Both the position numbers and the translations under genes were made by a program. Below the pieces are notes generated by a model. That model saw nothing but the letters and a program-made list of their open reading frames with translations. It did not search any database and had not been told where the DNA came from. A stretch of DNA of 64,000 bases, from the NCBI RefSeq assembly GCF_026627925.1, contig NZ_JAPNLE010000009.1, positions 1,178,001-1,242,000 on the forward strand, in the 5' to 3' direction. This document shows, one piece after another, positions 12,231 through 21,133 of the stretch (position 1 is its first letter; every line of letters starts with the position of its first letter). The DNA comes from Cupriavidus sp. D39. Lineage in GTDB: Bacteria; Pseudomonadota; Gammaproteobacteria; Burkholderiales; Burkholderiaceae.

Positions 12231-13751
12231 ATGTCTTCCCATCCTCACCCTCACCAGCATCCCGTCGTCGAGCATGACGATCTCCAGCGCAAGCTCAAGG
12301 CCCGCCACCTGACCATGATCGCCATCGGCGGCGCGGTCGGCACCGGGCTGTTCGTGGCCTCCGGCGCATCGATCTCCCAGGCGGGGCCCGGCGGCGCGCT
12401 GCTGATGTATTGCCTGATCGGCCTGATGGTGTATTGCCTGATGACCAGCCTGGGCGAGCTCGCCGTGCATATGCCGGTGGCCGGCTCCTTCGTCACCTAC
12501 AGCGCGCTCTATGTGGAGGAAGGCTTTGGCTTCGCGCTCGGCTGGAGCTACTGGTTCAGCCTGGCCGTGACCATTGCCGTGGAACTCACGGCGGCGCAAC
12601 TGGTGATGCAGTACTGGTTCCCGCACATCTCCGGCGTGATGTGGAGCGCGGGCTTCCTGTTCTTGATGTTCGGGCTCAACGCCTTCTCGGTACGCGGCTT
12701 TGGCGAGGCCGAGTACTGGTTCGCGCTGATCAAGGTAGCCACGATCCTGATCTTCCTGGCGGCCGGGCTGATGATGATCTTCGGCATCCTCAAGGGCGGG
12801 CCGCAATCGGGCTGGCACAACTTCACGCTTGGCGACGCCCCCTTCGTGGGCGGCATCCCCGCCATGTTCGGCGTGGCCATGATTGCCGGATTCTCCTTCC
12901 AGGGCACGGAGACCGTTGGCGTGGCAGCCGGCGAGGCCACCGACCCGGCGCGCACCATCCCGCGCGCCATCCGCCAGACTTTCTGGCGCATCCTGCTGTT
13001 CTACGTGCTGGCGATCCTGATCATCGGCGTGCTGATCCCCTACACCGACCCCAGCCTGCTGCGCAACGACGTCACCGACATCGGCGTGAGCCCCTTCGCG
13101 CTGGTGTTCCGCCATGCCGGCCTGGCCTTCGCCGCCGGGCTGATGAACGCGGTGGTGCTGACCGCCCTGCTCTCCGCCGGCACCTCCAGCATGTACGCCT
13201 CCACGCGGATCCTGTACGGCCTGGCGGTCAGCGGCCGCGCGCCACGGGCATTGGCGCGGCTCTCCGCCAATGGCGTGCCATACAACGCCCTGTTCGCCAC
13301 CACCGCCGTCGGCGCCCTGTGCTTCCTCAGTTCGTTGTTTGGCGACAAGGCGGTCTACCTGTGGCTGCTGAATACGTCCGGCATGACCGGCTTCATCGCG
13401 TGGCTCGGCATCGCCATCAGCCATTACCGCTTCCGCCGGGGACTGGTGTACCAGGGCTACAAGCCGTCCGACCTGGCCTACCGCTCGCCGCTCTATCCCT
13501 TCGGCCCCATCTTTGCCACCGTGCTGTGCGTGGTGATCGTGCTCGGCCAGAACTATCAGGCATTCAGCGATGTGCGCGGGCGCTGGCTGGAGATTGTCGG
13601 CACCTATATCGGCGTGCCGCTGTTCCTGGTGCTATGGCTGGGGTATCGGCTGGTCAGGAAGACGCGGCTAATCGACTATGAGGACATGCCGTTCAACTGC
13701 AAACGTGCGGGCGAGGCGGAGGCGGTTGGCGTAGGTGCGCCGGAGCGCTGA
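12231..13751 (+). CDS. Amino acid permease (APC superfamily, AAT family)
   Basis: The 506-residue inner-membrane protein has about 12 predicted hydrophobic segments. The first helix carries the family signature MIAIGGAVGTGLFVASG, which forms the unwound substrate-binding helix. Other conserved parts are SLGELAVHMPVAGSF and FSFQGTETVGVAAGEATDPARTIPRAIRQTFWRILLFY. It is a proton-coupled amino acid importer similar in layout to LysP, AroP and the D-serine/D-alanine/glycine transporter. The His-rich start MSSHPHPHQHPVVEHDDLQRKLKARH is typical of the cytosolic tail. The ATG at 12231 was preferred over the open upstream frame. Substrate is not determined. Confidence 0.93.
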   Translation: MSSHPHPHQHPVVEHDDLQRKLKARHLTMIAIGGAVGTGLFVASGASISQAGPGGALLMYCLIGLMVYCLMTSLGELAVHMPVAGSFVTYSALYVEEGFGFALGWSYWFSLAVTIAVELTAAQLVMQYWFPHISGVMWSAGFLFLMFGLNAFSVRGFGEAEYWFALIKVATILIFLAAGLMMIFGILKGGPQSGWHNFTLGDAPFVGGIPAMFGVAMIAGFSFQGTETVGVAAGEATDPARTIPRAIRQTFWRILLFYVLAILIIGVLIPYTDPSLLRNDVTDIGVSPFALVFRHAGLAFAAGLMNAVVLTALLSAGTSSMYASTRILYGLAVSGRAPRALARLSANGVPYNALFATTAVGALCFLSSLFGDKAVYLWLLNTSGMTGFIAWLGIAISHYRFRRGLVYQGYKPSDLAYRSPLYPFGPIFATVLCVVIVLGQNYQAFSDVRGRWLEIVGTYIGVPLFLVLWLGYRLVRKTRLIDYEDMPFNCKRAGEAEAVGVGAPER

Positions 13752-13857
13752 GCGAGCGGCCTAGCCGCGCACACCTAGCGCACCACATACTGCCAGTGCC
13801 TGCGCCGGAATTTAGTCTCCTGGCACCTGCGTGGTGCGGGGGGACTAGGCGTGCATA

Positions 13858-13881
13858 GAGATGTTCACTTCAAAACATCTC
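13858..13881. other. Stem-loop downstream of the ECF sigma operon and the permease gene
   Basis: GAGATGTT and AACATCTC form a perfect 8-bp stem with an 8-nt loop between the convergent permease gene and small-membrane-protein gene. There is no U tract on either strand, so a Rho-independent terminator is not clearly supported; it may stabilise mRNA ends. Confidence 0.4.
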
Positions 13882-13953
13882 GACGCCATCGTCGCCATCC
13901 GGCTCCCGCTACTCAAGAAAGGGAACTGGATGCTTACCCAATACCTTCTCCGC

Positions 13954-14196
13954 TCAATTTTCAGCTGGGAACTTCGCATCCAGATTGCGAGCTTTACGGT
14001 TGGCGATGGTTTCGAACAACCCCACCAACCAACACATCGGGCAACCCCGAAACAGCAGGAATGCGCCGATAAACAGCACGGGAGTAACAAAGACATAGGC
14101 TTGTTGGTACGCGCTCAAATACAGCGCTAAGCCAATCAGCACGAAAGCGCCCAGGCCTTTCAGCAGGTGAACACCGATGGATCGACTGCGGAACAT
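13954..14196 (-). CDS. Small membrane protein with CPMC motif, third gene of the ECF sigma operon
   Basis: This 80-residue protein starts with a basic segment. Two hydrophobic segments follow (about residues 14-29 and 33-48), then GCPMCWLVGLFETI, where a Cys-x-x-Cys pair lies just at the membrane edge, and a charged C-terminal tail. It is not a family I can name. It follows the sigma gene by 50 nt on the same strand. The DUF2892-like protein encoded before the sigma gene has the same CPMC string in the same place after a helix pair, so the two may share a redox or metal-binding function. This is inferred from the motif only. Confidence 0.75.
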   Translation of the reverse strand: MFRSRSIGVHLLKGLGAFVLIGLALYLSAYQQAYVFVTPVLFIGAFLLFRGCPMCWLVGLFETIANRKARNLDAKFPAEN

Positions 14197-14246
14197 AGCT
14201 TTCCCTTTCTATAAATGAGGGCAGAATGGACGCCGCCGTACCGACA

Positions 14247-14786
14247 TCACGCGTCGTCGGCCCAATAGCTGCCAGCCATCAGTTGGTCGCGCATCAGACC
14301 GCGGGCGCGATGCAAGCGGCTTTTGACCGCGGCCACCGAGATATTGAGGTGCGTCGCGGTCTCCGGCGCGGACAGTTCTTCGATATCGCGCAAGATCAGG
14401 ATTTCCCTGTAATGCGGCGGCAACGCAGCAATCGCCACCACCAGATCATGACGCAGTTGATGCGGCACCGGCACTTGGTACAACGTTTCCTCAAGCGCTT
14501 CCGATAGTGGCACCGTCTTTTTAAAGACCGAAAACAGCCGAAAACACTCACGCTCGACGATGCGAAACATCCAAGCTGCTAGTGCCGACAGCTTTTGCAG
14601 CGTGTGGATCTTGCTGTGCAGTTTCCACAGTGCGACCTGAACCGCGTCCTCAGCGTCTTCATTGGTGGCGCAAGTGCGGCGGGCGAAGCGCCTGAGGTCC
14701 GGCTGCATGGCGATGAGCAACTGGTCGAGCGCGCGTGAGTCACCCTGAAAGGCAGCTTCCACCAACTGAGCATCGAGTCGTCCCAT
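14247..14786 (-). CDS. ECF-type RNA polymerase sigma factor
   Basis: The 179-residue protein has sigma70 region 2 (DLRRFARRTCATNEDAEDAVQVALWKLHSKI, about residues 35-65) and region 4 (LPPHYREILILRDIEELSAPETATHLNISVAAVKSRLHRARGLMRDQL, near the C-terminus). That is the ECF layout without region 3. It directs RNA polymerase to a dedicated set of promoters, usually in response to an envelope or oxidative signal. No zinc-finger anti-sigma gene is adjacent, which is unusual. Instead the gene lies between two small CPMC membrane proteins, 2 nt after the first. The ATG at 14786 begins the conserved part; the open frame upstream overlaps the preceding gene. Confidence 0.93.
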   Translation of the reverse strand: MGRLDAQLVEAAFQGDSRALDQLLIAMQPDLRRFARRTCATNEDAEDAVQVALWKLHSKIHTLQKLSALAAWMFRIVERECFRLFSVFKKTVPLSEALEETLYQVPVPHQLRHDLVVAIAALPPHYREILILRDIEELSAPETATHLNISVAAVKSRLHRARGLMRDQLMAGSYWADDA

Positions 14787-14788
14787 GA

Positions 14789-14998
14789 TCAATCGGAGCG
14801 TTTCAGCTTGCGGCCGAACATGGCACACATCGGGCAGAAGCCGATGAAGCCGGTGCAGGCGAACACAACGCCAGCGGCCACCGCCACCCATTTGATGGCA
14901 GGTTCCATCGGCATGACGAAGGAGGCGATTACGATAACCAAGCCGATGCACAAGCGCAGTGCGCGCTCCCATTTCGGAAGATTCTTCTGAAAAAACAT
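14789..14998 (-). CDS. DUF2892 (YgaP-like transmembrane) small membrane protein
   Basis: The 69-residue protein matches the DUF2892/YgaP-TM pattern: MFFQKNLPKWERALRLCIGLVIVIASF, a second helix, then ACTGFIGFCPMCAMFGRKL. Two helices place the CPMC pair at the membrane surface. Related domains occur in rhodanese YgaP and as stand-alone proteins of unknown function. The start at 14998 has a strong ribosome site (AAGAGAGG). The stop is 2 nt before the sigma start, so translation is probably coupled. It is the first gene of the three-gene unit. Confidence 0.87.
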   Translation of the reverse strand: MFFQKNLPKWERALRLCIGLVIVIASFVMPMEPAIKWVAVAAGVVFACTGFIGFCPMCAMFGRKLKRSD

Positions 14999-15209
14999 AT
15001 AACCTCTCTTGCGGTTGAAGGACAGCGTTCCTACAGGGTAGGAGGCGGCCAGCGCCGCAAAGGATTCAAAAATTCCTGTTTTTTTGTCGTTCCAACTGCC
15101 GCCCAATGCACGCGCCAGTTACAGCCTGGTTTCCAGGACTTTGGCCCGGCTTTGCAGCAGATAACTCTCGACCACTAACTACGCTGCGTCGTGGTAGTTA
15201 CATTGCTTG

Positions 15210-15246
15210 CGCACCCAGCCGCCTCCAGCGACGCTTGCTGGGTGCG
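15210..15246. other. 10-bp perfect inverted repeat left of the IS630 copy
   Basis: CGCACCCAGC and GCTGGGTGCG face each other across a 17-nt loop. The stem sits just outside the left end of the insertion sequence and has no U tract, so it may be a recombination-prone palindrome or a structured leader. The surrounding 15.1-15.26 kb holds no supported gene apart from the interrupted small frame described at 16433. Confidence 0.4.
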
Positions 15247-15266
15247 TATCGACACGTTGGCAGCTA

Positions 15267-16429
15267 GTGTCCTGCGTCAGAAGTTCCTTGCATTATTGAC
15301 ACCACATAGTAGTCTGCGTTGAAGGCACGCAAACGGCGAGGCGGTGATGAGAGGAAGACCAAAGGCGGAACTCGTGTTGGATGAGGCCGAACGTGAGCAA
15401 CTCAAGGCGCTGACGATGCGGCGCAAGACCGCACAGGCGTTGGCGTTACGCGCGCGCATTGTGCTGGCTAGCGCTGAAGGCTTGGACAACAAGACCGTCG
15501 CGGCAAAGCAGCGTGTCACTCAGCAAACCGTATCGAAATGGCGTGCGCGCTTCGTGGCGCATCGGCTCGATGGACTGCTCGATGCGCCGCGCCCAGGGGC
15601 ACCGAGGTCCATCGATGACGCACAGGTGGATGCGGTTATTGCCAAGACGCTCGAATCCGTGCCAGCCAACGCCACCCACTGGAGCACGCGCAGTATGGCT
15701 CGCGCGGCAAATCTATCTCCGTCGACCGTGACGCGTATCTGGCGTGCCTTTGGATTGCAGCCTCATCGACAGGAGACCTTCAAGCTCTCCACCGACCCAT
15801 TGTTCGTGGAGAAGGTGCGCGATATCGTGGGGTTGTACCTCGACCCACCGCTCAAAGCCATGGTGTTGTGCGTTGACGAGAAGAGCCAGATTCAGGCACT
15901 GGACCGCACGCAACCCATGCTACCGCTGGCGCCTGGCATCCCCGAGCGACGCACGCACGACTACATGCGCCATGGCACGACAACGTTGTTCGCCGCGCTG
16001 GACATCGCCACTGGAAAAGTTATCGGTGAATTGCATCGCAGACATCGCAGCAGTGAGTTCCTGCAGTTTCTACGCACGATTGAAGCCAACGTGCCACCCA
16101 AGCTCGATGTGCATCTCGTCATGGACAACTACGGCACGCACAAGACGCCGTCGATCAAGGCTTGGTTCGCTCGCCATCCGCGCTTCCATGTTCATTTCAC
16201 ACCGACCTCCGCCTCATGGATCAATCAGGTGGAACGCTGGTTTGCAGCCATCACGGAACAATACATCCGCCGCGGCACGCATCGATCAACCCGACAACTT
16301 GAGCAAGCCATCCATCAATACCTCGACCTGAACAACGCCAACCCCACGCCTTTCGTGTGGACGAAGTCCGCCGATGACATCCTCGCCAGCATCAGGAGAT
16401 TTTGTCTGCGAATTTCTGACGCAGGACAC
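15267..16429 (+). mobile_element. IS630-family insertion sequence, complete
   Basis: Terminal inverted repeats start GTGTCCTGCGTCAGAA at both ends; 19 of the outer 20 positions match. Each end is flanked by TA (15265-15266 and 16430-16431), the target duplication typical of IS630/Tc1-mariner elements, here within CTAG on both sides. Total size is 1163 bp with one intact transposase frame, so it looks recently inserted and possibly active. It lies between the ECF sigma operon and the DctA-like gene. Confidence 0.93.
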
Positions 16430-16432
16430 TAG
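15347..16432 (+). CDS. IS630 family transposase
   Basis: The protein of about 361 residues has an N-terminal helix-turn-helix region ([15 protein letters not shown]), a second winged-helix-like segment and a DDE catalytic domain. The likely acidic triad is Asp in [13 protein letters not shown], Asp in [11 protein letters not shown] and Glu in [10 protein letters not shown]; the last two give the DNYGTHK...E spacing of IS630 transposases. A GTG lies directly before the chosen ATG and could also serve. The TAG stop codon is made of the right-hand target TA plus the next G, so the frame is closed by the target site rather than by the element itself. Confidence 0.95.
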
Positions 16433-16450
16433 GACTAGAGCTTTAGGCAT
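16433..16450 (-). pseudogene. Start of a small reading frame interrupted by the IS630 insertion
   Basis: On the minus strand an AAGGAG ribosome site (16463-16458) sits 7 nt before an ATG at 16450. The frame reads MPKALVL and runs straight into the insertion sequence. Removing the element and one TA copy joins it to 15264 and continues for 29 more codons to a stop at 15175-15177, giving a 36-residue product I do not recognise. Either a small gene was knocked out, or this is the beginning of a gene whose remainder is lost. Function unknown. Confidence 0.4.
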
Positions 16451-16575
16451 GGCGACTCTCCTTGTGGAGAGGTGGCCAGCGCGGGATGCCATTTGCCGCC
16501 TTCGGGCACCACTCGGTCAACCACCCACAGTGCGTCGCGTCAGCAGCAACGTCAGGGCATAGCTCTTTCGCGAAA

Positions 16576-17901
16576 TCAGGCCATGCTTTCTGGAGACTGC
16601 ATCGTTTGCTTGACCAGGGCGCCGTGACCGGCGACAAACTCATCGGAGAGTGAATCGGGCTCTTCCTCCGTCCCAAGTTCCCCCTCCCATTTTGCAACCA
16701 CGGCAGTGGCGATACTATTGCCCAGGACATTGGTCGCCGTGCGCCCCATGTCAAGGAACTGATCGATTCCCATCACAAGCAGCAGTCCGGCTTCCGGCAG
16801 GCCGAACATCGGCAAGATGGCGGCTACCACCACCAGCGAGCCGCGCGGGACCGCGGCCATGCCCTTGCTGCTGACCATCAGGATCAGAAGCATGGTGATC
16901 TGGTGCCCGAGCGACATGTCGACATTGAAGGCCTGCGCGATGAAGACCGCGGCAAACGCCTGATACACCATCGAGCCGTCGAGGTTGAACGAGTAGCCCA
17001 GCGGCAGGACAAAGCCGACGAGGCGCTTCTTCACCCCAAAGCGCTGGAGCCGCTCGATCATCTTTGGGTAAGCCGCCTCGCTGCTGGCGGTGGAGAAAGC
17101 GATCATCATGGGTTCGCGGATGCCCTTTGCCAGCTCGAACATGCGCCCCTTGAGAACCGCATAGCCTGCGATAAAGAGCACAGCCCACAGCGCCAGCAAC
17201 GCGAGATAGAACGCGCCGATGAACTTGCCATAGGTCACCAGTACGTCGAGCCCCTGCACGGTGATGGCCGCGGCAAGCGCTGCAAAGATGCCGACCGGGG
17301 CGAACAGCATCACCGTATTGGTGATGCGCAACATCACGTTCATCAGTTCGTCGACGGAACGTTTCAGGAACTGGCCGGAATCACCGGTAGCCTTGCCCAG
17401 TGCAACGCCGAAGAAGAGCGAGAAGATCAGGATCTGCATGATCTCGTTGGTCGCCATGGCCTCGAAGATGCTCTTCGGGAAAATATGCGTGACGAACTCT
17501 TTCAAATTGAGCGCGCTGGTCTTGAGATTCGTGCTTCCGCCAGCGTCCGGCAGGACCATGTTCAGGCTGACACCGGGTTGCGCCAGGTTCACGAACAGCA
17601 GTCCGATGCTCAGCGACACGAGCGATGCGACGATGAACCAGGTCAAGGCCTTGGCGCCGATGCGGCCGATTGCCTTGGCGTCGTCCATGCTCGCGATGCC
17701 CGAGACCAGCGTCGCAAATACGAGCGGGGCGATGATCATCTTGATCATGCGCAGGAAGATCTCGGTGATGATCGAGAAATTGCCGGCGATCACTTTGGCG
17801 GCTGCCGCGTCAGCCGCCATGCGGTGACAGGCATAGCCGACGATGACGCCCAGGACCATGCTGAGCATGATCCAGCGGGTAAGTTTGTTTGTGGTTTTCA
17901 A
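16576..17901 (-). CDS. Dicarboxylate/amino acid:cation symporter (DctA/GltP family)
   Basis: The 441-residue inner-membrane protein has the DAACS fold. The conserved parts are IIAPLVFATLVSGIASMDD, FSTASSEAAYPKMIERLQRFGV (hairpin 1), GYSFNLDGSMVYQAFAAVFIAQAF (helix 7) and LLILMVSSKGMAAVPRGSLVVVAA (hairpin 2). It imports C4-dicarboxylates or acidic amino acids with Na+ or H+. I chose the TTG at 17901, since GGAGG lies 7 nt upstream and the protein then begins KTTNKLTRW as usual. Its promoter shares an unusual box with the hydroxyaspartate operon regulator at 21.1 kb, so hydroxyaspartate or aspartate is a good candidate substrate. Confidence 0.92.
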   Translation of the reverse strand: MKTTNKLTRWIMLSMVLGVIVGYACHRMAADAAAAKVIAGNFSIITEIFLRMIKMIIAPLVFATLVSGIASMDDAKAIGRIGAKALTWFIVASLVSLSIGLLFVNLAQPGVSLNMVLPDAGGSTNLKTSALNLKEFVTHIFPKSIFEAMATNEIMQILIFSLFFGVALGKATGDSGQFLKRSVDELMNVMLRITNTVMLFAPVGIFAALAAAITVQGLDVLVTYGKFIGAFYLALLALWAVLFIAGYAVLKGRMFELAKGIREPMMIAFSTASSEAAYPKMIERLQRFGVKKRLVGFVLPLGYSFNLDGSMVYQAFAAVFIAQAFNVDMSLGHQITMLLILMVSSKGMAAVPRGSLVVVAAILPMFGLPEAGLLLVMGIDQFLDMGRTATNVLGNSIATAVVAKWEGELGTEEEPDSLSDEFVAGHGALVKQTMQSPESMA

Positions 17902-18065
17902 AGCTTCGCCTCCTGGCCAGTTTCCGATATCGGCGCCCGCGGCTGGTCTGGGCCAAGGGCTGCCTTTGCCGCCTCGCCGACGGCGGGCTGCGCACCAACC
18001 TTGGCGGGCAGACGCCATGCGCCAAGGCCTCGACGCACAGTGCATCCCGCTCATGTCGATAAGAC

Positions 18066-18094
18066 AGATTATCCAACACTAGACAAACCGTCAA
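18066..18094 (-). promoter_or_regulatory. Sigma70 promoter of the DctA-like gene, with shared regulator box
   Basis: On the minus strand a -35 TTGACG and a -10 TAATCT are separated by 17 nt. The spacer and -10 region read TTGTCTA, 5 nt, then TGGATAAT, the same as in the promoter at 21105-21133. The GACAA-N3-GTC dyad at 18082-18092 is a candidate operator. The predicted 5' leader is about 155 nt. Confidence 0.7.
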
Positions 18095-18101
18095 CACGAT
18101 G

Positions 18102-18503
18102 AAAACCCGAGGTATTTCGGGAAGACGAGGGCCCAGCGCCGGCGGCACGCGCACGAGAGCCCCGCTCGCCCACAATGCGCGCGAGCAAACCCCGCTCGAT
18201 GATCGCAGGCGCCTGCCTTCGGGCAACGGCCGCAAAGCGGAAACATTGGAGGAGATGGCCAGAGCGAGGCCAGGAATGCAATTGCGATGCCGGGGGACTT
18301 CCGGTGAACGCAAACGCCATCGTGTGCGCAGCCTGATGGACAGGCTCGCACGGATGACTATCGGTAGAAATGGGCGAATCTGTCCCTGACGGTGATACCG
18401 CTGGCCCCGGCAATCACGCCGCCGGGGTCAACGTCGCCTGCGCCACGCTGCATGGCCAGCCGGCGCCATGCGCACCGGCCGCCCTGCACGCGAGTCATGC
18501 CAA
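18102..18503. other. Intergenic region between the DctA-like promoter and the ammonia-lyase gene
   Basis: About 400 bases carry no supported gene. A 7-bp inverted repeat, CCCCGGC (18405-18411) facing GCCGGGG (18421-18427), lies downstream of the ammonia-lyase stop on the minus strand and could mark the operon end, though without a U tract. Confidence 0.45.
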
Positions 18504-19466
18504 TCAGCCTGCAAGCAATGCCGCAAACCGGTCGATATCGATGTTCCCGCCGCTGATGATGACCCCCACGCGCTTGCCCTTCAGTTCGGCCTTCATCGCG
18601 CGCGCGGCCGCAAAGCCGAGGCAGCCGGTGGGCTCCACCACCAGTTTCATGCGCGATGCGAAAAAGCGCATGCAGTCGACCAGTTCCTCGTCGGTCGCGG
18701 TCACGATGTCATCGACATCGCGGCGAATGATCTCGAAGGTGTAGTTGCCAAGGTGCTGCGTCTGCGCGCCGTCGGCGATGGTCTTGGGTGTCTCGATATG
18801 CACGATCGAGCCGGAGCGGAACGACTGCTGGCCGTCGTTGCCGGCGGCTGGCTCCACGCCGTAGATCTTGCATTGTGGAGCCAGTGCGCGCGCGGACAGC
18901 GCGGAACCGGAGAGCAGCCCGCCGCCGCCAAGGCAGACGAACAGGGCATCCAGCTCGCCGGTTTCCTCGAACAGTTCCTTGGCCGCGGTGCCCTGCCCGG
19001 CAATGACATCCGGATGGTCATACGGCGGGATCAGGGTCAGGCCGTGCTCCTCGGCCAGCTTGCGGCCGATTGCCTCGCGATCTTCCGTATATCGGTCATA
19101 GATGACCACTTTGGCGCCGTAGCCGCGGGTCGCGGCTACCTTGGCGGCCGGCGCATCATGGGGCATCACGATCGTCGCAGGGATGCCGAGCAATGAGGCC
19201 GACAACGCAATGCCTTGCGCATGATTGCCCGAAGAATACGCCACCACCCCTGCCCGCCTCTGGCGCTCGTCGAACTTCGAGAGCGCATTAAAGGCGCCAC
19301 GAAACTTGAAGGCACCCATGCGCTGCAGGTTCTCGCACTTGAAGAAGAGTTCCGCGCCCACTTCCTTGTCCGCAGTGCGCGAGCGCATGACGGGGGTGCG
19401 GTGAGCATGGCCCTCAAGCCGCCGGGCGGCTGCTGACACATCATCAAAAGTGGGTAGATTCAGCAT
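18504..19466 (-). CDS. Threo-3-hydroxy-L-aspartate ammonia-lyase (serine/threonine dehydratase family)
   Basis: The 320-residue PLP enzyme is complete. Lys54 in GAFKFRGAFNAL should bind PLP, SSGNHAQGIALS (from residue 78) is the substrate loop, and GGGGLLSGSAL (from about 180) is the phosphate loop. The stretch RYTEDREAIGRKLAEEHG-LIPPYDHPDVIAGQGT, together with GVEPAAGNDGQQSF and TPKTIADGAQTQHLG, strongly recalls yeast SRY1, a hydroxyaspartate dehydratase, rather than biosynthetic IlvA. It lacks the IlvA regulatory domain. The known reaction is 3-hydroxyaspartate to oxaloacetate and ammonia through iminosuccinate. It is third in an operon after the regulator and OCD-family gene, 28 nt from the latter. 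Serine racemase activity is an alternative. Confidence 0.85.
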   Translation of the reverse strand: MLNLPTFDDVSAAARRLEGHAHRTPVMRSRTADKEVGAELFFKCENLQRMGAFKFRGAFNALSKFDERQRRAGVVAYSSGNHAQGIALSASLLGIPATIVMPHDAPAAKVAATRGYGAKVVIYDRYTEDREAIGRKLAEEHGLTLIPPYDHPDVIAGQGTAAKELFEETGELDALFVCLGGGGLLSGSALSARALAPQCKIYGVEPAAGNDGQQSFRSGSIVHIETPKTIADGAQTQHLGNYTFEIIRRDVDDIVTATDEELVDCMRFFASRMKLVVEPTGCLGFAAARAMKAELKGKRVGVIISGGNIDIDRFAALLAG

Positions 19467-19494
19467 GATCGTAAGTCTCGTTTGAGTAAGAAGG

Positions 19495-20466
19495 CTACCA
19501 GGGCCAGTGAATGCTGGTGCCCGCTTGCGCGGCGGCGGCTCGCCGATGGAGCAGGCGAGCCACCGTCAGGTCCTGCAGCGCCAGGCCCGTCATATCGAAG
19601 ACGGTAATGTCGGCATCGTGGCGGTCAACTTGCGCCTTGCCGGCCAGCACGTCGCCGATTTCCGTGCAAGGCGTATCCGGCGCCCACTGCGTTTCGCCGA
19701 TCTGGCGGGCCTGGGCCCGGTCGTCGACAAACAGCCGCGCGCGCGCCAGCAGGCCGTCGGGCAACTCGCGCTTGCCGCGTGTGTCCGCGCCCACGCAGTT
19801 CAGGTGCGTTCCGGCCTGCACGGCTTGCAGGTCGAACAGCGCACCGCCGCCAGGCGTTGCGGTGATCACCACGTCGCTGCCCGCCACCGCCGCATTGCGA
19901 TCAGCGGCATGGGAAATCTCGCAGCGCTCGGCGAAGGCGCGCTCGAACGCGGCGTCGGGCTTGCCCGTCACCGTAACGTATTGAACCTGCGTGAGCGAGG
20001 GCAGCAGCGCAAGGGCAAACGTCAACTGGATCCGCGCCTGCACGCCAGTGCCGAACAAGCACAGGCGCTCGCTGTCCTGGCGTGCCAGTAACTGAAGCCC
20101 CAGGCCGCCAGCGGCGCCGGTGCGCATCGTGGTGACGGCGTTGCCATCGATCATGCACACTGGCCGGCCGGTTGCCGGATCGATCAGCATGATCGTAGCC
20201 TGATGCGGCTCGCCGCCTACCTGGCGGTTGGCCGGCCAGAATCCGGCCGCCTTGAAACCCAGCAGGTCCTGCGACTGGACATCGCCGGACTTGATGCCGA
20301 ACACGCCACCGGTCGCCAGTGGCTCCCGAACCAGCGGAAAGACACGGCCCTCGCCCTGGCTATGCAGGACAAAGGCTTCGTTCACCGCCTCCAGTGCATC
20401 TGCCGGCTGCAGCAGTGACTCGACCTGGTTCTTGTCGAGCAGGAGCAAGCGCGCCTCACTTGGCAT
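19495..20466 (-). CDS. Ornithine cyclodeaminase/mu-crystallin family NAD(P)-dependent reductase (iminosuccinate reductase-like)
   Basis: The 323-residue protein has the OCD/mu-crystallin layout. GIKSGDVQS and GNAVTTMRTGAAGGLGLQLLAR form the substrate side, LCLFGTGVQARIQLTFAL the Rossmann loop, and CVGADTRGKRELP plus ITVFDMTGLALQDL the C-terminal signatures. Members reduce cyclic imines, act as alanine dehydrogenases, or, as BhcD of the beta-hydroxyaspartate cycle, reduce iminosuccinate to L-aspartate. Pairing with a hydroxyaspartate ammonia-lyase, which makes iminosuccinate, favours the last. EutC (ectoine breakdown) is an alternative, but eutD and eutE are absent. Its ATG overlaps the end of the regulator gene by 11 nt, so translation is probably coupled. 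Confidence 0.85.
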   Translation of the reverse strand: MPSEARLLLLDKNQVESLLQPADALEAVNEAFVLHSQGEGRVFPLVREPLATGGVFGIKSGDVQSQDLLGFKAAGFWPANRQVGGEPHQATIMLIDPATGRPVCMIDGNAVTTMRTGAAGGLGLQLLARQDSERLCLFGTGVQARIQLTFALALLPSLTQVQYVTVTGKPDAAFERAFAERCEISHAADRNAAVAGSDVVITATPGGGALFDLQAVQAGTHLNCVGADTRGKRELPDGLLARARLFVDDRAQARQIGETQWAPDTPCTEIGDVLAGKAQVDRHDADITVFDMTGLALQDLTVARLLHRRAAAAQAGTSIHWPW

Positions 20467-21098
20467 AGCTATACACCGTAGCCCGCGACACGCCGAGATG
20501 CAGCGCCACGATTTCCATGGCGCGGCGCACCTCCATGAATCCCGCCTCCTTGAGTTCGCGCAGCAACGCGCGCCTGTCTTCGGCCTTGAGGGATCGCGGT
20601 GTAGTGGCAAGGCGCGCGGCAAACTGGTCGATGCGGCCCCGAATGGCATCCGCGCCGGCCGGGTCGAGCGACTCCTTCATGGCCGCGCCCGCGTCCACGC
20701 TGCCAAACTGGCCCAGCACGTTTTGCAAGCTGCGGAACAACGTCAGGTCGACGTTCATGCACAGGGCGGCCACATAGCCCCCGGTCGAATCCTTGATGCC
20801 GATCGACGTGCTCTTGGCCTGCCGCCCGTCGGCGAACTGATTCGCATAGTTGGCGATCACCTGCGGATACTCGGGGTCGGCAATCCGGGCAAGCCCCAAC
20901 TCCAGTTGCGGGGTCTCCCACCTGGCGGCCCGACAGGTTGTTATGGATGGCGAGGATGGCGTGCTTAGGGTCCAGCAGATCGTGGACAACCACCTCGCAA
21001 AAGGGCGCGAAGGTCTCGCTCAGACCTTGGGCCACCTGCTTGAGTTGCTCGAGCAGCGCTTGCTGCTCGGGCGTGCGTTCTGGCGTGCGTTTTTTCAT
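20456..21098 (-). CDS. YheO/DauR-like PAS-HTH transcriptional regulator, frame broken near 20903
   Basis: The restored protein is about 213 residues. The N-terminal YheO-like PAS domain reads LSETFAPFCEVVVHDLLDPKHAILAIHNNLSGRQVGDPAT, then ELGLARIADPEYPQVIANYAN in the next frame; one extra base lies at about 20902-20903. The C-terminal domain (EDRRALLRELKEAGFMEVRRAMEIVALHLGVSRATVYSYAK) is the HTH_22 DNA-binding part. DauR, which controls D-arginine use in Pseudomonas, is the best-known relative. It is first in the operon before the OCD-like and ammonia-lyase genes. Its promoter lies so close that the transcript is probably leaderless, and it shares a box with the DctA-like promoter, pointing to self-regulation plus transporter control. 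Confidence 0.86.
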
Positions 21099-21104
21099 GC
21101 GGAC

Positions 21105-21133
21105 ACATTATCCAGATATAGACAATTTGTCAA
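21105..21133 (-). promoter_or_regulatory. Sigma70 promoter of the YheO/DauR-like regulator operon, probable leaderless start
   Basis: On the minus strand the consensus -35 TTGACA and -10 TAATGT are 17 nt apart. The expected transcription start falls at or next to the ATG at 21098, so the mRNA would have no leader; indeed no ribosome site precedes the ATG. GACAA-T-TTGTC (21121-21131) is a perfect dyad over the -35 edge and a likely operator. Confidence 0.72.

Follow-up and report, generated by a model that had tools for sequence, protein, structure and literature searches.

A candidate 3-hydroxyaspartate utilisation regulon with a YheO-type regulator and a 30-bp operator in Cupriavidus

Introduction

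Why would a bacterium keep together the genes for a pyridoxal phosphate (PLP)-dependent lyase, an OCD/mu-crystallin-family protein, an SDF-family transporter and a YheO-type regulator, and what substrate would they share? The question is raised by positions 16576..21133 of a 64,000-nucleotide stretch of DNA from Cupriavidus sp. D39 (the window), where genes of these four families lie together on the minus strand. A sequence-only reading had named the same families, all of which are confirmed by profile matches (Table 1), and had proposed a module for the use of hydroxyaspartate. The gene set is probably a 3-hydroxyaspartate utilisation regulon, the predicted steps being import, dehydration, and reduction or hydrolysis of the resulting imine.

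The enzyme families and the elimination-reduction logic (BhcB/BhcD, EutB/EutC) are already known, and the ligands of YheO regulators are, to our knowledge, largely unknown. In the open-access literature, outside which most subscription papers lie, no catabolic regulon around threo-3-hydroxyaspartate (THA) dehydratases was found described, nor were the operator, the two interchangeable dehydratases or the link to an amino-acid transporter that are set out below. Loci and genomes are referred to by L and G numbers.

Results

Gene order and a common operator

Transcription runs from the regulator gene through the OCD-family gene and the lyase gene to the transporter gene. Because the OCD start codon overlaps the 3' end of the regulator gene and a gap of 28 bp separates OCD from lyase, the regulator, OCD and lyase genes look like a single operon. 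The transporter gene comes ~600 bp beyond the lyase gene, with a separate promoter-like site and operator (18063-18092). The four nearest relatives, L132 (G003), L133 (G007), L134 (G005) and L135 (G006), show the same order transporter-lyase-OCD-regulator. The OCD, lyase and transporter genes of the window have uninterrupted frames with 91-96% identity to the two nearest, L132 and L133.

Table 1. Features of the locus, with window coordinates and the evidence for each
Feature	Position	Strand	Evidence and remarks
SDF-family (glutamate/aspartate-type) transporter	16576..17901	-	PF00375 2e-112; likely TTG start 17901; ORF open to ATG 18054
Operator 2, 30-bp dyad over transporter promoter-like site	18063..18092		32.2 bits, clade-held-out model; 1 mismatch to pattern
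Putative threo-3-hydroxy-L-aspartate ammonia-lyase (PLP, fold type II)	18504..19466	-	PF00291; NF005454 596.8 bits; 1v71 528.3 bits
OCD/mu-crystallin-family protein, probable iminosuccinate reductase	19495..20466	-	PF02423; start MPSEARLLLL
YheO-type regulator, split over two frames	20456..21098	-	PF08348 PAS_6 + PF13309 HTH_22
Operator 1, 30-bp dyad over promoter-like site of regulator operon	21102..21131		stops 3 bp before ATG

The operator was defined by a dyad search upstream of 61 YheO genes, which gave 29 sites (23 distinct) with scores of 16 or more. Their consensus, the 30-bp dyad GACAntTTGTCCAgatcTGGACAAanTGTC, has a left end that doubles as the -35 box TTGACA. Of 11 inner-arm positions 6.83 are paired, compared with 5.77 when arms are swapped between sites (maximum 6.65 of 1000) and with 2.89 at all other windows; an 18-bp half-dyad, weaker than the 30-bp dyad, was set aside as a motif. 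A held-out model, trained on 16 sites that exclude the window's clade (the window itself and L132-L142) and run over the 64-kb window, gives 32.2 bits at 18063, over the transporter promoter, and 31.0 bits at 21102, over the regulator promoter; the third best place reaches -0.8 bits. The sequence-only reading had named a transporter unlinked in regulation as evidence against its own proposal, and the operator at 18063 instead supports a regulatory link.

The operator was also followed into whole genomes. The pattern GACANNNTRTCYANNNNTRGAYANNNTGTC, with up to three mismatches, occurs at four places in the 7.74-Mb genome of the strain and at none in the backward control, a result that amounts to the absence of a fifth place, pattern and mismatch limit having been set after the four sites were seen. 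These precede the transporter, the regulator operon, a second OCD gene (just upstream) and a second lyase gene (~230 bp upstream). Across 60 genomes of the genus the pattern is found at 81 forward places in 40 genomes, against 8 in the control. Among the matches listed, outside the strain's own genome, 34 places have at most two mismatches: 21 lie at promoters of the module or of a lyase paralogue, 6 at a D-amino-acid-like cluster (L232, L233, L235) and 7 at nothing known.

Two sets of loci were scanned at 15 bits. In a lyase survey comprising the best 80 of 577 relatives, 39 sites fall in 35 loci, all at most 450 bp upstream of a module gene (shuffled sequence, 1), and 45 loci have no site. 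In 29 OCD-clade loci, drawn from genus and order with the own genome apart, 34 of 35 sites lie upstream of a module gene (shuffled sequence, 0). The sites upstream of regulator genes in part served to train the model; those independent of it precede the transporter, a RidA gene in L135, the strain's own paralogues and the lyases of Variovorax loci that have no nearby YheO gene (L003, L004, L007). No operator site was detected at the Escherichia coli yheO promoter (best 0.2 bits in 10 kb). The strain's own D-threo-type dehydratase gene was ruled out as a regulon member, its best site scoring -5.2 bits. Judged from these placements, the module is with high probability co-regulated by a YheO subfamily, and this is among the best-supported parts of the proposal. 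Because the operator overlaps the promoter, it suggests that the YheO-type regulator would act at the dyads as a repressor.

The D-amino-acid-like cluster (G014, G020, G040) contains a gene 27-28% identical to a D-threo-dehydratase, with a YheO paralogue in L232 and L233, and its open reading frames (ORFs) look like N-acyl-D-amino-acid deacylase, TctC and gamma-glutamyltransferase.

A regulator gene split over two frames

As regards the regulator, the family and the linkage proposed by the sequence-only reading hold; the gene itself is split over two frames in this genome. PAS_6 and HTH_22 both score over their cut-offs, but in two ORFs: the start and the first PAS half lie in 20469-21098, the second PAS half and the HTH in 20456-20989. 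The gene is a single ORF in L132-L135, and the window copy is the only PF13309 match in its genome. The break reflects either a genuine mutation or a fault in the assembly. Only 3 bp separate the end of operator and promoter from the regulator ATG (window 21098-21131), an arrangement also seen in many relatives, so that the regulator mRNA may be leaderless.

The frame break also bears on whether the cluster is a relic decaying in this genome. Such decay would agree with a ~2.9-kb insert at 13724-16619 that G003 and G007 lack at this position; the insert carries an IS630 element and has replaced DNA beside the transporter. We nevertheless regard a relic as very improbable: the OCD, lyase and transporter frames remain open at the identities given above, both operators are kept, and one frame break may come from faulty assembly. 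Besides the IS630-type transposase gene (15344-16432) the insert has an ORF (14247-14972) that looks like a sigma factor. At its border the 3' end of the transporter gene is altered, likeness to the relatives stopping near 16620.

The lyase

The lyase scores 596.8 bits with the curated model for threo-3-hydroxy-L-aspartate ammonia-lyase (NF005454), the cut-off of which is 452. It falls below the cut-offs for BhcB (NF045641; 348.4 against 550), EutB (251 against 413) and TdcB (296.1 against 453), and below those of the other threonine ammonia-lyase models listed. The closest solved relative is Schizosaccharomyces pombe 1v71 (528.3 bits), the next structure scoring 260.2. The lyase very probably dehydrates hydroxyaspartate, the firmest of the functional assignments made here and one of the best-supported parts of the proposal. 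Hydroxyaspartate as the substrate class, already put forward from the sequence alone, is thus upheld by the NF005454 score and by the linkage of OCD and YheO genes to both types of THA dehydratase, described below.

Relatives of 1v71 are called serine racemase, and the OCD protein is nearly as close to an archaeal alanine dehydrogenase as to BhcD (144.8 against 147.6 bits). Both facts would suit a serine racemase or serine/threonine dehydratase paired with an alanine-dehydrogenase-like OCD enzyme that acts on the imine of pyruvate. This pairing is quite improbable in light of the NF005454 match, the scores below the cut-offs of the TdcB and threonine ammonia-lyase models, the acidic-amino-acid motif in the transporter and the linkage to a D-threo-type dehydratase.

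Additional lyase genes are present in this group. The second lyase gene of the strain (C1:442576-443535) is 86% identical to the first. Relatives carry a second lyase (68-70%) downstream of the transporter (L132:1019-2113, L134:672-1880, L135:1-407), that of L132 passing NF005454 with 488.5 bits; a search of the strain's own genome found no copy of this extra downstream lyase. The lyase of G005 is broken into two ORFs (L134:4523-5588), by mutation or assembly error.

One OCD gene beside two unrelated dehydratases

OCD orthologues occur in 27 of 60 genomes of the genus at E<=1e-60 and in 3 of 399 genomes spread over the order at E<=1e-80, the strain included in both counts. A survey of neighbourhood conservation, which the sequence-only reading had called for, gave a YheO gene within 5.5 kb of OCD in all 29 OCD-clade loci, a linkage beyond chance, and an L-threo-type lyase (75-98% identical pieces) nearby in 21. 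OCD and YheO abut in 28 of the 29, and in L155 the transporter gene sits between them. Six loci (L136-L140, L160) lack the L-threo lyase and have a dehydratase of the D-threo-3-hydroxyaspartate type, which adjoins OCD in L160 and lies ~2.3-2.7 kb downstream in L136-L140. Both dehydratases are present in L159 and neither in L141 or L142, where the contig stops 1.3 kb and 0.9 kb, respectively, downstream of the OCD gene. The D-type protein of L136, the sole one run against the PDB, matches the solved Delftia D-threo-3-hydroxyaspartate dehydratase 3wqc with 628.4 bits, and four D-type proteins score 102-118 with the BhcC model (cut-off 690).

The two dehydratases belong to fold type II and fold type III and have opposite stereochemistry, yet they are expected to yield one common product, iminosuccinate. 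Because the OCD gene is kept beside either of them, its product is best read as acting on iminosuccinate. A distant OCD lineage (34-35%) in Pectobacterium and kin (L177, L179, L036) is found with an L-threo lyase (76-77%), a D-type dehydratase and YheO; the L177 lyase scores 598.8 with NF005454, and the D-type dehydratase identity is 49% in L177 and 48% in L179. To judge by its partners, this lineage fills the same putative job as the OCD protein of the window.

The top NCBIfam model for the OCD protein is BhcD (NF045643; 214.7, cut-off 500), followed by archaeal alanine dehydrogenase (193.1, cut-off 409); EutC lies further off (120.8 against 471.65), and no curated cut-off is reached. The solved relatives are BhcD 6rqa (147.6 bits) and alanine dehydrogenase 1omo (144.8 bits). 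A tree of 68 rows, from which L102, L195 and L018 were left out as duplicates, has a 39-member clade that includes the window protein (support 100/100). The 16 BhcD proteins that exceed the BhcD cut-off group separately (100/99), as do L177, L179 and L036, which form a third lineage; the relation among the three clades is unsettled, with a program warning on long branches. Columns F39, W73, H84 and Q256 (numbered from residue 5; counted also without L091, which is badly cut and has a branch of 4.6) are common to the window clade (39), BhcD (16) and the third lineage (3), and differ in nine EutC/AlaDH-like rows. This agreement fits a shared substrate, short of proof. K55 was ruled out as a BhcD-specific residue, EutC/AlaDH-like rows carrying it too.

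Reduction of iminosuccinate to aspartate by the OCD enzyme is fairly likely. An alternative keeps import and dehydration as proposed and has the OCD enzyme reduce another imino acid, a cyclic or D-amino-acid-derived imine, while iminosuccinate hydrolyses to oxaloacetate; the OCD role would then resemble the D- to L-amino-acid conversion by DauA/DauB. P. aeruginosa DauB converts 2-ketoarginine to L-arginine (PMC5619798). The scores below every curated cut-off are compatible with this alternative, as are the operator-like sites at D-amino-acid-like clusters and the replacement of OCD by RidA in many neighbourhoods (among the best 80 lyase loci, RidA alone 15, OCD alone 9, both 1). It is nonetheless unlikely, since one or other of two unrelated 3-hydroxyaspartate dehydratase types accompanies the OCD gene, two separate OCD lineages share that setting, and the top model is BhcD.

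RidA and the second fate of the imine

Within 4 kb of the lyase, the best 80 lyase loci have YheO in 31, RidA in 16, a D-type dehydratase in 11, OCD in 10 (one 34% identical) and SDF in 4; neither OCD nor RidA is present in 55. RidA proteins deaminate imines (PMC5619798), so RidA would send iminosuccinate to oxaloacetate. The sequence-only reading had foreseen two fates for iminosuccinate, aspartate and oxaloacetate, and the neighbourhoods do offer either an OCD enzyme or a RidA-type imine deaminase with these putative activities. In G006 (L135) a RidA gene stands between lyase and transporter; no RidA remnant was detected at that position in the window (best E 0.29). RidA and OCD are not claimed to be strict alternatives, since L035 and L135 have the two genes together and the 80 loci do not count as independent cases.

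Two further genes of the strain belong to these families: a D-threo-type dehydratase (84%, C1:568008-569153) and the second OCD gene (L093, 76% identical, C1:601537). The latter was ruled out as a full copy of the module, neither a YheO nor a THA dehydratase gene being near it.

The transporter

The transporter had been read as a DctA-like importer. DctA is indeed the top profile (NF002461; 347.9, cut-off 513), ahead of GltP (NF008440; 293.1, cut-off 638), but in its binding motif the protein agrees with GltP and with the solved aspartate transporter 9bgz, which is also the best solved relative (271.9 bits). The last-helix motif is LDMGRT in the window protein and seven relatives (L132-L135, L155, L035, L025; L097-L100 left out of the comparison), LDMART in E. 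coli GltP and in 9bgz, and MSEARA in E. coli DctA. The protein thus carries the Asp and Arg of the LDMxRT motif of SDF acidic-amino-acid transporters, and not the E. coli DctA motif. In GltPh, this Asp and Arg hold the amino group and the side-chain carboxylate of aspartate, and threo-beta-hydroxyaspartate is a classic ligand of animal members of the family. On balance, the transporter would probably import hydroxyaspartate. Its likely TTG start at 17901 is preceded by AGGAGG (ORF 16576-18054).

Discussion

Proposed pathway and its meaning

From the families, their linkage and the operator sites we infer the substrates, products and direction of the following route, as well as repression and its inducer. 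The SDF transporter would import 3-hydroxyaspartate and perhaps also aspartate; the PLP lyase would dehydrate the L-threo isomer to iminosuccinate, the imine of oxaloacetate; and the OCD-family enzyme, with NAD(P)H, would reduce iminosuccinate to L-aspartate, nitrogen being kept. As an alternative exit, iminosuccinate would give oxaloacetate and ammonia, spontaneously or by RidA-type hydrolysis. The predicted binding sites of the YheO-type regulator are the two 30-bp dyads, one overlapping the promoter of the regulator operon and the other that of the transporter; in the simplest mode the regulator would repress both until released by the substrate or the imine. With its regulator gene split, the regulon would be out of control here, unless the break is an assembly error.

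A wider reading, which we hold only tentatively and at somewhat less than even chance, extends this picture to a YheO subfamily in Burkholderiales, Halomonas-like bacteria and Pectobacterium. Through GACAntTTGTCCAgatcTGGACAAanTGTC it would serve as a switch for 3-hydroxyaspartate or its imine and govern a modular pathway that saves nitrogen: a single imine reductase would take the product of two unrelated dehydratases, each serving one stereochemical class.

Several observations weigh against the proposal. The OCD protein is far under the BhcD cut-off and forms its own clade, and H84-Q85 is also present in mu-crystallin. This genome has a broken regulator gene, the own D-threo-type dehydratase has no nearby operator, and the own second OCD gene has neither a YheO nor a THA dehydratase gene within 5.5 kb. 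As many as 41 of the best 80 lyase loci have none of the five partner types within 4 kb, OCD being found in only 10 and SDF in only 4. The genome pattern was fixed with its four sites in view; finally, operator-like sites in three relatives also precede the different, D-amino-acid-like cluster, so that the operator is not specific to hydroxyaspartate.

A source for the substrate can be suggested. Cupriachelin, a siderophore of C. necator, contains L-threo- and L-erythro-3-hydroxyaspartate (PMC10484230). The Cupriavidus module may recycle hydroxyaspartate from such siderophores, and the two dehydratase types of the strain could, as a hypothesis, together handle both siderophore isomers. If the proposal is right, 3-hydroxyaspartate, a siderophore building block for metal binding, gains a dedicated bacterial route back to aspartate, and YheO regulators gain a testable ligand class and a concrete operator. 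It would also provide a second setting, outside the beta-hydroxyaspartate cycle (BHAC), in which an OCD enzyme may reduce iminosuccinate, and the nitrogen-saving step from hydroxyaspartate to aspartate would be useful for synthetic photorespiration bypasses.

Comparison with known systems

The nearest parallel is the BHAC, whose enzymes BhcB and BhcD were reportedly described by Schada von Borzyskowski in 2019, a work to which PMC11876095 refers. In both cases a PLP dehydratase feeds, or is predicted to feed, an OCD-family iminosuccinate reductase, and the reductases have columns in common. The window proteins, however, fall below the curated cut-offs, the regulator is of another type, and the module is linked to an acidic-amino-acid transporter rather than to a glycolate-fed cycle. 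The sequence-only reading had held the other BHAC genes absent; this stands for BhcC, the best match in the whole genome being 430.9 against 690 (NF045642), and the best matches to BhcB (348.0 against 550) and BhcD (215.2 against 500) are likewise under their cut-offs, no search having been made for BhcA. The best BhcC match (G000:C9:599186-600274, L238) is perhaps a D-threonine or D-3-hydroxyaspartate aldolase.

THA dehydratases are known as well. Pseudomonas sp. T62 is said to have an L-threo-3-hydroxyaspartate dehydratase. The D-threo-3-hydroxyaspartate dehydratase of Delftia sp. HT23 acts on the D-threo and L-erythro isomers (PMC8071972). The window lyase belongs to the L-threo family and its alternative partner in relatives to the D-threo family; unlike the known enzymes, which are described as single enzymes, the lyase stands within a regulon with a reductase, a transporter and a regulator.

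DauR is a YheO-type regulator and so parallels the regulator type of the window module. The DauBAR system for D-arginine use in P. aeruginosa also has an OCD-family enzyme around an imino acid, but DauA is a flavin dehydrogenase, there is no dehydratase and the substrate is another (PMC5619798). EutB/EutC, for hydroxyectoine use, combine a threonine-dehydratase-like enzyme with an OCD-family reductase (PMC5924519). The elimination-reduction logic is the same as that proposed for the window module, whereas the substrate and the regulator are different and the window proteins score below the EutB and EutC cut-offs.

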